Source: an uncultured Pelagibacteraceae bacterium
GTDB taxonomy: Bacteria; Pseudomonadota; Alphaproteobacteria; Pelagibacterales; Pelagibacteraceae
Assembly: GCA_902533945.1 (NCBI GenBank)
Contig: CACANS010000004.1
Location: forward strand, 1-52,875
Length of the DNA stretch: 52,875 nucleotides
Reading direction: 5' to 3'
The notes under the pieces were generated by a model. That model had not been told where the DNA came from. It did not search any database and saw only the letters and a list, made by a program, of their open reading frames with translations. The position numbers were made by a program, and so were the translations under genes. Positions 24,200 to 29,766 of the stretch are shown here, piece after piece (position 1 is the first letter of the stretch; the number at the start of each line of letters is the position of its first letter).

Positions 24200-25234
24200 T
24201 TGAAAAACCTATCAATATTTAAAGTTATATATATTAATTTTTTTTTACTTTTATTTTTATTACTTATAATTGAATTAACATTTGGTTATTGGTTTAAAAA
24301 TAAATTTAATCTTAAGTTGGCTGCTGAAAGAAATATAGAAAGAATTTATAAATTTAATTTTGAACTACATAAAGGAACATCTTTATATAAAAGAGATAAT
24401 CTTGCATTTAGAATAGGAAAAAAAGAAGTAAAACCGAAAAATATTGATATAGTTTTTTCAGGTGGTTCAACGACTAATCAAAAATTTTTAAATTATAAAG
24501 ACACTATAGTTGGAATTCTAAATACTAAAAAAGTTTCAAAAAACATAGTAAATGCAGGTATTGATGGAATGTCTATTATTGGACATTTAAATAGTTTTGA
24601 AAATTGGTTTGATAAAATTAAAAATTTAAAACCAGAGTACTTCATATTTTATATAGGAATTAATGATCAAAATATTATTAAAAAAAATTCTAAACCTAGA
24701 GCAATTGATTTTTTAGAAGAAAATAGCCAAAAGGAAAATATCGCTGAATATTTACAATCTAGCTCTTTTTTTTACACTAAATATAGAGTTTTAAAAACAA
24801 ATTTATTTTTAAAATTTAATTACAGTAAGTTTGCTAACATTGTGAATGAAAATACAAAAGTATATGGTGAAAGAAACAATGATAATTTTATTGAGTATGA
24901 AAAATTTAAATACAACGAAATTGAAACTCCTTTAATTAATCAAAATTATCTTAAATATTTAGAAGAACTGACAAATAAAGTATTAAAAAGAGGATCAAAA
25001 GTTATTTATATTACTCAAATTTCCGGAACTGGAATAAATAAAGATTTGTATATAATTTCAGAGACAATTATAAATCATTGTAATGAAAAAAATTTACATT
25101 GTTTAAACTTAGCTAAAAATGCAAATTTACAATATGAAGATTTTTATGATTGGACACATTTAAATAAAAAAGGTTCAGTTAAAGCAGCTAATTTTATTTA
25201 TGAGAATCTTTTAAATATTGTTTTTAAAAATTAA
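24200..25234 (+). CDS. Membrane-anchored SGNH/GDSL-like hydrolase
   Basis: The 344 residues begin with a strongly hydrophobic segment (about residues 6-30), then a periplasmic domain with SGNH blocks: FSGGSTT (S90 as candidate nucleophile), GIND at 153-156 (block III Asn) and DWTH near the C-terminus (D317, H320). The family includes O-acetyl esterases and acyltransferase-related enzymes of surface polysaccharides; function here is unknown. The start is a TTG 1 nt after the prpC stop, since no Met occurs before the membrane segment. It is convergent with nrdB, overlapping it by 4 nt. Confidence 0.7.
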   Translation: MKNLSIFKVIYINFFLLLFLLLIIELTFGYWFKNKFNLKLAAERNIERIYKFNFELHKGTSLYKRDNLAFRIGKKEVKPKNIDIVFSGGSTTNQKFLNYKDTIVGILNTKKVSKNIVNAGIDGMSIIGHLNSFENWFDKIKNLKPEYFIFYIGINDQNIIKKNSKPRAIDFLEENSQKENIAEYLQSSSFFYTKYRVLKTNLFLKFNYSKFANIVNENTKVYGERNNDNFIEYEKFKYNEIETPLINQNYLKYLEELTNKVLKRGSKVIYITQISGTGINKDLYIISETIINHCNEKNLHCLNLAKNANLQYEDFYDWTHLNKKGSVKAANFIYENLLNIVFKN

Positions 25235-26238
25235 GAAAATGCTTCTGTCCAATTTCCTTGAGTCGATGCTTTAGAATACTCTGTCGCTCTACCCTCAAAA
25301 AAATTCATATGCTCTACAGCATTAAGCATTGTATCTAACCAAGTTAGTGGATTTTTATCAACTTTATAAATTGGCTCTAAACCTAACTGAACCAATCTTC
25401 TATTTCCAATAAATCTTATATAATCCTTAACTTCTTTGGCGGTTAAACCTTCCATAGGTCCCATTTCAAAAGCTAAATCTATAAATGCATCTTCGTGATT
25501 AATTATTGTTCTACATGATTCATATAGTTCCTTTTTAAGTTGTGGAGTCCATATTTGTGGGTTTTCTTTTATAAATTCTTTAAAGAGTCTAATCATTGAA
25601 TTACAGTGCAAAGTTTCATCTCTAACTGACCAGGTAACAATTTGCCCCATACCTTTCATTTTATTGTGTCTTGGAAAATTTAACAAAATTGCAAAACTTG
25701 CAAATAACTGAAGACCTTCTGTAAATGCACTGAATACTGCAACTGTTTTTGCAATATCTTCTTTTGAATTTACATTAAATCCTTGCATATAATCGTATTT
25801 ATCTTTCATCTCTTTATATTTCATAAAAGCAGAATACTCAGATTCTGGCATACCAATAGTATCTAATAAGTGTGAGTAAGCAGCTATATGAACTGTTTCC
25901 ATTGCTGCAAATGCAGTCATCATCATAAGTACTTCTGTTGGTTTAAAGACCGTTGTATAATGTCTTAGATAACAATTGTTAACTTCGACATCTGCTTGAG
26001 TAAAGAATCTAAAAATTTGAGTTAATAAATTTTTTTCAGATTGTGATAAATTTTTTTGCCAATCTCTTACATCATCCCCTAGTGGAACTTCTTCTGGCAA
26101 CCAATGAATTCTTTGCTGAGTAAGCCATGCGTCGTAGCACCATGGGTATCTAAAAGGTTTATAAACCGGGTTTTCAACTAAAAGTCCCATTTTCTTTGGT
26201 TGAATTATTTCTGAATTAATTTTTTTAACTACTGACAT
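25231..26238 (-). CDS. nrdB: Ribonucleotide reductase class I, beta subunit
   Basis: NrdB carries the di-metal centre and radical that drive ribonucleotide reduction with NrdA. Ligands are visible: an Asp in FFTQADVEVN, Glu and His in METVH, with the radical Tyr four residues after His (HIAAY), Glu in FTEGLQ, and Glu/His in RDETLH. No N-terminal ATP-cone is present. The track start is a GTG at 26247. The ATG at 26238 (MSVVKK) is better because GAGGAG lies 8 nt upstream of it, inside the nrdA tail; this gives 335 residues overlapping nrdA by 10 nt. Confidence 0.95.
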   Translation of the reverse strand: MSVVKKINSEIIQPKKMGLLVENPVYKPFRYPWCYDAWLTQQRIHWLPEEVPLGDDVRDWQKNLSQSEKNLLTQIFRFFTQADVEVNNCYLRHYTTVFKPTEVLMMMTAFAAMETVHIAAYSHLLDTIGMPESEYSAFMKYKEMKDKYDYMQGFNVNSKEDIAKTVAVFSAFTEGLQLFASFAILLNFPRHNKMKGMGQIVTWSVRDETLHCNSMIRLFKEFIKENPQIWTPQLKKELYESCRTIINHEDAFIDLAFEMGPMEGLTAKEVKDYIRFIGNRRLVQLGLEPIYKVDKNPLTWLDTMLNAVEHMNFFEGRATEYSKASTQGNWTEAFS

Positions 26239-28166
26239 GATAAACACTCCTCGTATTCTGGTTGATCGTCTTGTTGTTTTTTTGATTTATATACATTTGC
26301 TGTAATATCAGTAGAATTTACATCATTAACATTTTCAGCTCTCTGTATTGATTTTGATCTGCAATAGTAAAGGCTTTTCAATCCTTTTTTCCATGCTTGG
26401 AAATGGATTTGATGAAGATCTCTTTTGTGTACATCTGCGGGTAAAAATATGTTTATAGATTGAGCCTGTGAAATATGTGGAGTTCTGTCTGCACCTAAAT
26501 CCACAACCCATCTTTGATCCAATTCAAATGCTGTTTTGAAAACATCTTTTTCTTCTTTTGTTAAAAAATCTAAATGTGAAACAGAACCTTGGTTTGTTGT
26601 TATGCTGGACCAAGTCTCATCATTATCCTTTTCATATTTAGATAAAATATTTTTTAAGTATTTATTTTTGACATTAAATGATCCGGATAATGTTTTGTGG
26701 GTATAGCTATTTGCAGCTATGGGTTCAATTCCTGGCGAAGTTCCTCCACAAATAATAGATATGGATGCTGTTGGTGCAATAGCTGTCTTATTAGAAAATC
26801 TTTCTTTAATTCCATACTCTTCAGCATCAGGACATGCTCCTCTCTCTTCTGCTAAAAACTTTGATGCTTTATCAACATCCTGTTGTATGTGATCAAATAT
26901 TTTTTTGTTCCAGACTTTACTCATAACAGACTCAAATGGTATCATTTTTTTTTGAAAGTACGAATGTAAACCCATAACACCTAATCCAACACTTCTTTCT
27001 CTTAAAGCTGAGTATTTTGCATCACGGAATTCGTCAGGAGCTTTTTCTATAAAATCAGTTAAAACATTGTCTAAAAATCTCATTACATCTTCTATAAAAT
27101 TTTTATCATCTTTCCATTCGTCGTATTTTTCAATATTTAAAGATGACAAACAACAAACAGCTGTTCTGTCTTTTCCGTCTTTATCCACTCCAGTCGGTAA
27201 TGTTATTTCGCTGCACAAATTAGATGTCTTAACAGTTAATCCTGCAAGTTTGTGGTGTTGAGGAATTTGTCTATTCACAGTGTCTATAAAAATTATATAT
27301 GGTTCTCCGGTTTCGACTCTAGCTGTCAAAAGTCTTATCCATAAATTTCTAGCAGATACCTTTGATTGGACAGAACCATCTTTTGGACTTTTTAATCCCC
27401 ATTGTTCATCTAATTCTACAGCTCTCATAAAAGCATCAGTAACTAAAACTCCATGATGTAAATTTAATGCTTTTCTATTTGGGTCTCCGCCGGTTGGTCT
27501 TCTCATTTCAATAAACTCTTCAATTTCAGGATGGTCAATTGGAAGATAACAAGCGGCCGAACCTCTTCTTAATGAACCTTGGCTAATTGCCATTGTTAGT
27601 GAGTCCATTACTTTGATAAAAGGAATTATCCCAGACGTTTTTCCTACTCTTCCAATCTTTTCACCGATTGACCTCAAATTTCCCCAGTAGCTTCCTATTC
27701 CACCGCCTTTTGCAGCTAACCAAACATTCTCACTCCATAAATCTAAAATTCCATTTAGACTGTCGCCTGCTTCATTTAAAAAACACGATATAGGCAAACC
27801 TCTTTTTGTCCCACCATTAGAAAGAACTGGTGTTGCAGGCATAAACCACAAATTGCTTATATAATTATATAATCTTTGTGCATGAAGATTGTCATCAGCA
27901 TAATAACTAGCAACTCTTGCAAATAAATCTTGGTAAGATTCATTAAGACCTAAATATCTATCACTTAATGTTGCTTTTCCAAAAATTGTTAAATTTATAT
28001 CCCTAGATCTATCAATTTTAATTGTTATTCCTTTAGAGTTTTGAAAAAGCTCTGTTTCGTTATTAAGTGTAAATAAGTCTGGTCTTTTTTCTTGGTTTTG
28101 ATTAGTTGTATTGGGTGAATATTCAGAAACAGCTTGTTTTAATGCCTGAGACAAAATTTTGTTCAT
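26229..28166 (-). CDS. nrdA: Ribonucleotide reductase class I, alpha subunit
   Basis: This large catalytic subunit reduces ribonucleoside diphosphates. LPISCFLNEAGDSL holds the first active-site Cys, SNLCSEITLP the Asn and the radical Cys with its Glu, and the C-terminal EECLSCQ is the redox-shuttle Cys pair reduced by thioredoxin or glutaredoxin. PTASISIICGGTSPGIEP is the phosphate-binding region. At 645 residues it is shorter than E. coli NrdA (761) and lacks the N-terminal ATP-cone (no VxKRDG segment), so dATP inhibition at that site is not expected. A LexA-type box and promoter lie upstream. Confidence 0.96.
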   Translation of the reverse strand: MNKILSQALKQAVSEYSPNTTNQNQEKRPDLFTLNNETELFQNSKGITIKIDRSRDINLTIFGKATLSDRYLGLNESYQDLFARVASYYADDNLHAQRLYNYISNLWFMPATPVLSNGGTKRGLPISCFLNEAGDSLNGILDLWSENVWLAAKGGGIGSYWGNLRSIGEKIGRVGKTSGIIPFIKVMDSLTMAISQGSLRRGSAACYLPIDHPEIEEFIEMRRPTGGDPNRKALNLHHGVLVTDAFMRAVELDEQWGLKSPKDGSVQSKVSARNLWIRLLTARVETGEPYIIFIDTVNRQIPQHHKLAGLTVKTSNLCSEITLPTGVDKDGKDRTAVCCLSSLNIEKYDEWKDDKNFIEDVMRFLDNVLTDFIEKAPDEFRDAKYSALRERSVGLGVMGLHSYFQKKMIPFESVMSKVWNKKIFDHIQQDVDKASKFLAEERGACPDAEEYGIKERFSNKTAIAPTASISIICGGTSPGIEPIAANSYTHKTLSGSFNVKNKYLKNILSKYEKDNDETWSSITTNQGSVSHLDFLTKEEKDVFKTAFELDQRWVVDLGADRTPHISQAQSINIFLPADVHKRDLHQIHFQAWKKGLKSLYYCRSKSIQRAENVNDVNSTDITANVYKSKKQQDDQPEYEECLSCQ

Positions 28167-28225
28167 TTATAATACCTTTTTACTACTTTTTTTGTAAAAC
28201 AACTAGATGTTGTATGTAGATCTCA

Positions 28226-28253
28226 TTAATATACTATATAAATTTGAAATCAA
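28226..28253 (-). promoter_or_regulatory. Candidate sigma-70 promoter for nrdAB
   Basis: On the minus strand a TTGATT hexamer (28248-28253) is followed after 16 nt by TATTAA (28226-28231), leaving about 50-60 nt to the nrdA ATG. The -35 hexamer is directly next to the GAAC-N7-GAAC box. AT-richness makes chance matches likely, so only the combination is convincing. Confidence 0.45.
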
Positions 28254-28255
28254 TA

Positions 28256-28270
28256 GAACATATATAGAAC
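28256..28270 (-). promoter_or_regulatory. LexA/SOS-type operator GTTC-N7-GTTC upstream of nrdAB
   Basis: The plus strand reads GAAC ATATATA GAAC (GTTC-N7-GTTC on the minus strand), an exact match to the alphaproteobacterial LexA box. It is embedded in an 11-nt tandem repeat (28253-28274; 10 of 11 bases identical). It lies about 90 nt upstream of nrdA and 50 nt upstream of the divergent phosphomutase gene, and abuts the candidate nrdA -35 element, where a bound repressor would block RNA polymerase. Confidence 0.6.
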
Positions 28271-28320
28271 ATACAAAAAAAATATCAATAAAAAAGTTAA
28301 AAAAATGTACATATATTTAA

Positions 28321-29766
28321 ATGCTAAAATCCATAAAAATTGATCCTTTAGGTTTTAGAGAATACGATGCGCGATGGTTGTATCCTGAAAAGATAAATTC
28401 AGAGGGGATAAAATTAGTAGGTAAAGGTTTTGGAACACAAATTAATAATAAAATAAAAAATCCAAGAGTTTCGGTTGGTCACGATTACAGATCATATAGT
28501 GAAGAAGTAAAGAAGAGTTTTGTAGATGGTTTAGTCTCAACTGGGTGTAATGTTGAAGATATAGGGTTATGTTTATCACCAACAATCTATTTATCGCAAT
28601 TTAAATTAAATACTGATGCAGTAGCAATGATTACTGCAAGCCACAATGAAAATGGCTGGACAGGAATTAAAATGGGTATTGAAAAAGGTTTAACACACTG
28701 TAAAGACGAAATGTCTGAACTGAAAGATATTGTTCTAAATAAAAAATTTATTAAAGGTGACGGTTCTTATAAAAAAATAGAAGATTTTGCTAAAATTTAT
28801 ATCGATGATTTGTCTAAAAATAAAATTAAAAAAAAAATCAAAGTAGTTGTTGCTTGTGGCAATGGAACAGCAGGAATTTTTGCACCAGATATTTTAAGAG
28901 GAATTGGGTGTGACGTTGTAGAATTAGATTGTAATTTAGATTTTAATTTTCCAAAATACAATCCAAATCCAGAGGATATGAAAATGCTTCATGAAATAGC
29001 TAAATCAGTAAAAGAAAACAATGCTGATGTTGGATTTGGTTTTGATGGAGATGGTGATCGTGTTGGAGTAATTGATAACAATGGAAACGAAATTTTTGCA
29101 GATAAAATCGGTTTACTAATTGCAAGAAATATTTCAAATAAACATCAAAATTCAAAGTTTATTGTAGATGTTAAATCTACTGGATTGTTTGAAAAAGATG
29201 CAATTTTAATAAAAAATAATTGTAAAACAATATACTGGAAAACTGGACATTCTTATATAAAAAGAAAAGTTAATGAAGATAATGCAATAGCTGGTTTTGA
29301 AAAAAGTGGACACTTTTTCTTTAATAAACCTTTGGGATATGGATTTGATGATGGAATAAATTCTGCAATACAAATTTGTCATTTATTAGATAACCAAAAT
29401 TCAAAAATTAGTGAATTAAATGAAAGTTTGCCAAAAACTTTTCAAAGTCCAACAATGGCTCCTTTTTGTAAAGATGAGGATAAATATATTTTAATTGATA
29501 ATTTAACCTCTAATATTAAAAAATTAAAAAATGATAATATTAAAATAGATGGACTAACTATAAATAAAATATTGACAGTTAATGGAATTAGATTTTCTTT
29601 AGAAGATGGTTCGTGGGGATTAATAAGAGCATCCTCAAACAAACCTTCATTAGTGGTTGTTACTGAAAGTCCTGCATCTGATGATAGAAAGAAAAAGATC
29701 TTTGAATTCATTGATGAATTACTCCAAAAAACTGGCAAAATTGGTGAATACGACCAAAAAATTTAA
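28321..29766 (+). CDS. Phosphomannomutase/phosphoglucomutase family
   Basis: Alpha-D-phosphohexomutase of 481 residues. The phosphoserine loop is ITASHNENGWTG, the metal loop FGFDGDGDRVG, and the sugar-specificity segment GFEKSGHFFF; a C-terminal phosphate-binding domain follows (VVVTESPAS). It interconverts hexose 1- and 6-phosphates for polysaccharide and nucleotide-sugar synthesis (glucose or mannose; phosphoglucosamine mutase is less likely from the GFEKSGH loop). The gene is divergent from nrdA and convergent with the TauE-type gene. Confidence 0.88.
   Translation: MLKSIKIDPLGFREYDARWLYPEKINSEGIKLVGKGFGTQINNKIKNPRVSVGHDYRSYSEEVKKSFVDGLVSTGCNVEDIGLCLSPTIYLSQFKLNTDAVAMITASHNENGWTGIKMGIEKGLTHCKDEMSELKDIVLNKKFIKGDGSYKKIEDFAKIYIDDLSKNKIKKKIKVVVACGNGTAGIFAPDILRGIGCDVVELDCNLDFNFPKYNPNPEDMKMLHEIAKSVKENNADVGFGFDGDGDRVGVIDNNGNEIFADKIGLLIARNISNKHQNSKFIVDVKSTGLFEKDAILIKNNCKTIYWKTGHSYIKRKVNEDNAIAGFEKSGHFFFNKPLGYGFDDGINSAIQICHLLDNQNSKISELNESLPKTFQSPTMAPFCKDEDKYILIDNLTSNIKKLKNDNIKIDGLTINKILTVNGIRFSLEDGSWGLIRASSNKPSLVVVTESPASDDRKKKIFEFIDELLQKTGKIGEYDQKI

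Follow-up and report, generated by a model that had tools for sequence, protein, structure and literature searches.

The published LexA consensus of Caulobacter is GTTCN7GTTC (PMC12700426, PMC9578287), and the nrd genes go unmentioned in the Caulobacter SOS papers that we examined. In Escherichia coli, nrdAB was reported to lie outside the LexA regulon, and the LexA protein of Vibrio cholerae did not bind in EMSA to a LexA-like sequence at nrdA (PMC5963079). In both of these bacteria nrdAB is equipped with NrdR boxes and rises after DNA damage. NrdR sites at known ribonucleotide reductase promoters form pairs of 16-bp boxes placed 31 bp apart, and the measured optimum is a 15-bp spacer, i.e. 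about three turns (PMC12051234). A literature search, which did not include the comparative LexA study of Proteobacteria by Erill et al. (2004), returned no report that LexA controls nrdAB in SAR11 or in any other alphaproteobacterium.

The window analyzed here, a stretch of 52,875 nucleotides, comes from an uncultured member of the Pelagibacteraceae (SAR11), whose source genome G000 (870 kb, 28% GC) is 69% complete; among named sequences, its nrdA is matched most closely by single-cell genomes of Pelagibacteraceae. A preliminary description had pointed to an exact match to the alphaproteobacterial GTTC-N7-GTTC operator near the nrdA promoter, and our analysis confirmed it: GAACATATATAGAAC lies in the intergenic region, with nrdA on one side and a divergent phosphomutase gene on the other (Table 1). 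The 11-nt tandem repeat described for this site is real by eye, as adjoining units TAGAACATATA and TAGAACATACA within 28254-28275 that differ in one base; since GTTC-N7-GTTC itself has a period of 11, repeat and box are for the most part one observation. An automated repeat search did not list, at its settings, a direct repeat at these positions. The TTGATT/TATTAA promoter-like pair reading into nrdA was also found where it had been placed, with a 16-bp spacing. On the minus strand TATTAA occupies 28226-28231, and TATATT at 28228-28233 qualifies just as well as the -10 element. The nrdA promoter was not picked out by a simple sigma-70 scan; nevertheless, its TTG and AGTATATT elements are kept across the family. 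Relative to the inferred start site, the box spans about -49 to -35, directly upstream of the -35 element.

Table 1. Features of the nrdAB locus, in coordinates of the window.
Feature	Position	Strand	Remarks
nrdB, class Ia ribonucleotide reductase small subunit	25231..26247	-	PF00268; overlaps nrdA
nrdA, class Ia ribonucleotide reductase large subunit, 645 aa	26229..28166	-	PF02867, PF00317
Probable NrdR box 2, ATACAACATCTAGTTG	28200..28215	-	Scores 11/16 in the window and as much as 13/16 in relatives
-10 region of nrdA promoter, TATATT or TATTAA	28226..28233	-	AGTATATT conserved in family alignment
Probable NrdR box 1, CAAATTTATATAGTAT	28231..28246	-	Overlaps -10 region; 11/16 to consensus; weak in some other genera
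-35 TTGATT of nrdA promoter	28248..28253	-	TTG fixed 2 bp after box in 40/40 representatives
Predicted LexA box, GTTCTATATATGTTC (nrdA sense)	28256..28270	-	Exact GTTC-N7-GTTC; conserved; common to lexA and umuD promoters
Phosphoglucomutase/phosphomannomutase gene	28321..29766	+	PF02878-PF02880, PF00408; divergent, possible second target

A single match to the box by itself proves nothing; it is conservation that does. The window holds one exact match against 0.54 expected, a number reached in 42 of 100 shuffles, and the whole genome holds six against 18 for the reversed control word, so that the word is depleted rather than enriched. Five of these six matches lie inside ORFs, and the nrdA site is the sole one outside. 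This lack of enrichment in both window and genome is what would be expected of a chance match in AT-rich DNA, a reading that is refuted by the comparison with relatives and to which we assign a negligible probability. The exact box was present at all of the first 30 congener nrdA loci and at 108 of 110 nrdA loci in total (some genomes being counted in two collections), the exceptions being L138, with one mismatch, and L076, where the box is lost. It was likewise found in 14 of 14 genomes from five other genera, in which the eight half-site bases are invariant and the spacer is variable (e.g. GTTCGTGTAATGTTC and GTTCATATTATGTTC). The box is carried by genome G131 (L249). After the nrdA upstream regions of Pelagibacteraceae had been reduced to 41 representatives sharing <85% identity, from six genera, 40 of them contained the exact box, compared with scores of 0 or 1 for 11 permuted words and of 0 for all other spacings from 3 to 14 in the same regions. 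In each of the 40 box-bearing representatives two bases separate the end of the box from the TTG of the -35 element. Family f2, the second one of the order, yielded distant reductase matches only (37-38% over ~106 residues, in ORFs of ~1200 aa) and thus no comparison.

Exact boxes were also noticed at other places. Some congeners have one at ~2.77 kb from the nrdA box, which we treated as coding sequence, as this distance puts it within nrdB, and recurrent boxes elsewhere, such as GTTCAATAAAAGTTC, were rejected as sites because they lie inside ORFs.

The preliminary description proposed a search for lexA, and for the same box upstream of lexA and recA. A lexA gene was not found in G000, which the 69% completeness of the assembly would explain. 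The lineage does possess it: of 121 congeners 88 carry lexA, among them 17 of the 19 that are >=90% complete, and so do 11 of 11 genomes tested from other genera. Visual inspection of LexA from three relatives revealed that the Ala-Gly cleavage bond (AAG), the serine of GDSM and the lysine of KIVVALI are kept, which identifies it, as far as the protein sequence tells, as the cleavable type. The start codon of lexA is directly preceded by the exact box at 20/20 congener loci and 11/11 other-genus loci read. Upstream of recA the box has one half-site mismatch, GAAC-N7-GTAC, and is thus not exact, in 31/31 genomes (30 congeners and the source genome). Neither of the two proposed grounds for refuting the LexA reading, a lack of lexA or of such boxes at recA, applies to the lineage. 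In many lexA promoters (L009-L028, L273-L283) a second, variant box, GTAC-N7-GTTC, adjoins the start codon. It resembles the single variant box of recA, and the two perhaps represent a weaker class of sites.

Four complete relatives allowed the boxes to be surveyed genome-wide. In the congeners G012 and G082, with 13 and 15 exact boxes, the intergenic ones occur only before umuD, nrdA and lexA, and in G121 and G129, which belong to two other genera, before umuD, nrdA, lexA and mraZ; all remaining exact boxes of the four genomes are inside ORFs. The exact mraZ boxes (L337 and L336, respectively) are located 88-146 bp upstream of the gene. As the cell-division (dcw) cluster usually begins with mraZ, it is possible, judging by these boxes, that division is under SOS control in the two genera.

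OmpR/PhoB-family response regulators bind 11-bp repeats, and both the period of 11 and the AT-rich spacer of the nrdA site would suit a regulator of this or another kind. We consider such an assignment very improbable, as outside genes the word otherwise occurs at lexA and umuD, at recA with one mismatch, and at hardly any other place, and is identical to the Caulobacter LexA consensus (PMC12700426, PMC9578287). The operator shares with the Caulobacter crescentus type not only the consensus but also its position before lexA and a LexA protein with HTH and S24-type cleavage features. On the other hand, the target set seen in the Pelagibacteraceae, in contrast to that of Caulobacter, is very small, comprising lexA, recA, umuDC and nrdAB, with mraZ in some genera. 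The operator itself is ordinary, and the unusual part is the make-up of the predicted regulon, since in E. coli and V. cholerae nrdAB does not belong to it.

A box placed between two divergent genes might serve either of them, and it had been suggested that this one could also act on the phosphomutase gene. That gene is divergent from nrdA in nearly all relatives. Moreover, TATAGA within the box could function as a plus-strand -10 element, as in the lexA promoter, and the TATA in the spacer is alike in the nrdA and lexA boxes (GTTCTATAAATGTTC and GTTCTATAAAAGTTC), where it may form the -10 element at lexA. However, other genera have lost TATAGA, and at L074 and L245, where another gene replaces the phosphomutase, the box stays with nrdA. 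The phosphomutase ATG is found at distances of about 50 to 80 from the box, whereas the distance to the nrdA -35 element is constant. The retention of the box at L074 and L245, together with the fixed 2 bp, favors nrdAB as the target. It is thus unlikely that a genuine LexA operator at this place has the phosphomutase gene as its main target, or serves both genes equally; an influence on that gene is conceivable as a side effect.

The nrdA promoter also appears to have a second input. Two probable NrdR boxes, scored against the NrdR box consensus, are situated over and downstream of the -10 region, at the 31-bp distance typical of known NrdR pairs; their 15-bp spacer agrees with the measured optimum (PMC12051234). 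In 36 of the 41 representatives an NrdR-like pair at 31 bp beats shuffled sequences (p<0.05), and 31 gives the best mean score among spacings of 26-36. The ACAACAT-TAGTTG of box 2 is nearly invariant in the family alignment, and nrdR is encoded by the source genome and 11 relatives (TIGR00244 above cut-off). The SAR11 pair differs from known ones in the weakness of box 1 in some genera and in the adjoining LexA box. At L076, where the LexA box is lost, both the -10 region and the NrdR boxes persist in the nrdA promoter, which makes this locus a natural test case.

The site and its conservation, its presence also before lexA and umuD, the variant at recA and the cleavable-type LexA of relatives were all seen directly; from these we infer the occupancy by LexA, the sign of its effect and the induction by damage. 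With high probability, a LexA operator just upstream of the -35 element represses nrdAB until DNA is damaged, alongside NrdR control. LexA bound at 28256-28270 would block the access of RNA polymerase to the -35 element and keep nrdAB low; DNA damage would lead to RecA filaments and self-cleavage of LexA, and the block would be lifted. The dNTP supply would then go up along with RecA, LexA and UmuDC, while the two NrdR boxes would add the usual dATP-sensing repression. In this way the promoter would read damage as well as the dNTP pool, which resembles the situation in E. coli and V. cholerae, with the damage side being a prediction in SAR11.

The position of the box, upstream-adjacent to the -35 element, would also permit LexA to activate or tune nrdAB instead of repressing it, and LexA of Rhodobacter sphaeroides reportedly has a dual role at recA. 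Nevertheless, we regard activation or tuning as improbable, since in the lexA and umuD promoters the box is near the start codon, a position from which one would expect it to repress, and since nrdAB goes up when lexA and recA are induced during infection by pelagiphage HTVC027P (PMC12753301). In this infection, host nrdA of HTCC1062 increased 3.1-8.9 fold and nrdB 2.5-5.8 fold, recA, lexA, umuD and umuC were also up, and HTVC027P is without nrd genes of its own. Altogether, 33% of host genes were altered, and the increases of nrd and SOS genes are discussed separately there (PMC12753301). Derepression by NrdR could be an alternative cause of the nrdAB increase under these conditions. An SOS cluster of lexA, recA and mucA goes up late in iron stress, and nrd genes are absent from the main text describing it (PMC2864753).

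Two other pelagiphages, HTVC168P and Eistla (L347, L348), carry their own nrdA and nrdB within a gene run. No LexA box was seen in the phage nrd stretch read, so the phage copies would escape LexA control.

Beyond the order, the exact box was found within 300 bases upstream of nrdA in 9 of 60 regions from other alphaproteobacterial families (L251, L253, L267, L287, L289, L292, L297, L298 and L313, two of which share a family). In the same regions permuted words scored 0-3 (mean about 0.9) and other spacings 0-1, i.e. the nine boxes represent about ten times the permuted-word background. At L251, L292 and L297 the box precedes a GTGACA -35-like hexamer by 3-6 bp, an arrangement like that of SAR11.

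Based on these observations, we suggest that the Pelagibacteraceae probably have a minimal SOS regulon of about four transcription units, in which nrdAB is strictly kept and dNTP synthesis is under joint LexA/NrdR control, a link that recurs in scattered other alphaproteobacterial families. Since SAR11 cells have few transcription factors, a regulatory site kept in six genera is informative. SAR11 are the most abundant bacteria of the ocean, and their small SOS response very probably raises the supply of DNA precursors directly. The predicted regulon indicates which SAR11 genes would be raised when sunlight, starvation or phage damages DNA, and offers a simple reason for the joint increase of host nrdAB, recA, lexA and umuDC in pelagiphage infection. 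It also suggests that a core metabolic operon, found outside the LexA regulon of model gammaproteobacteria such as E. coli and V. cholerae, can sit inside that of another lineage, as predicted here for SAR11.
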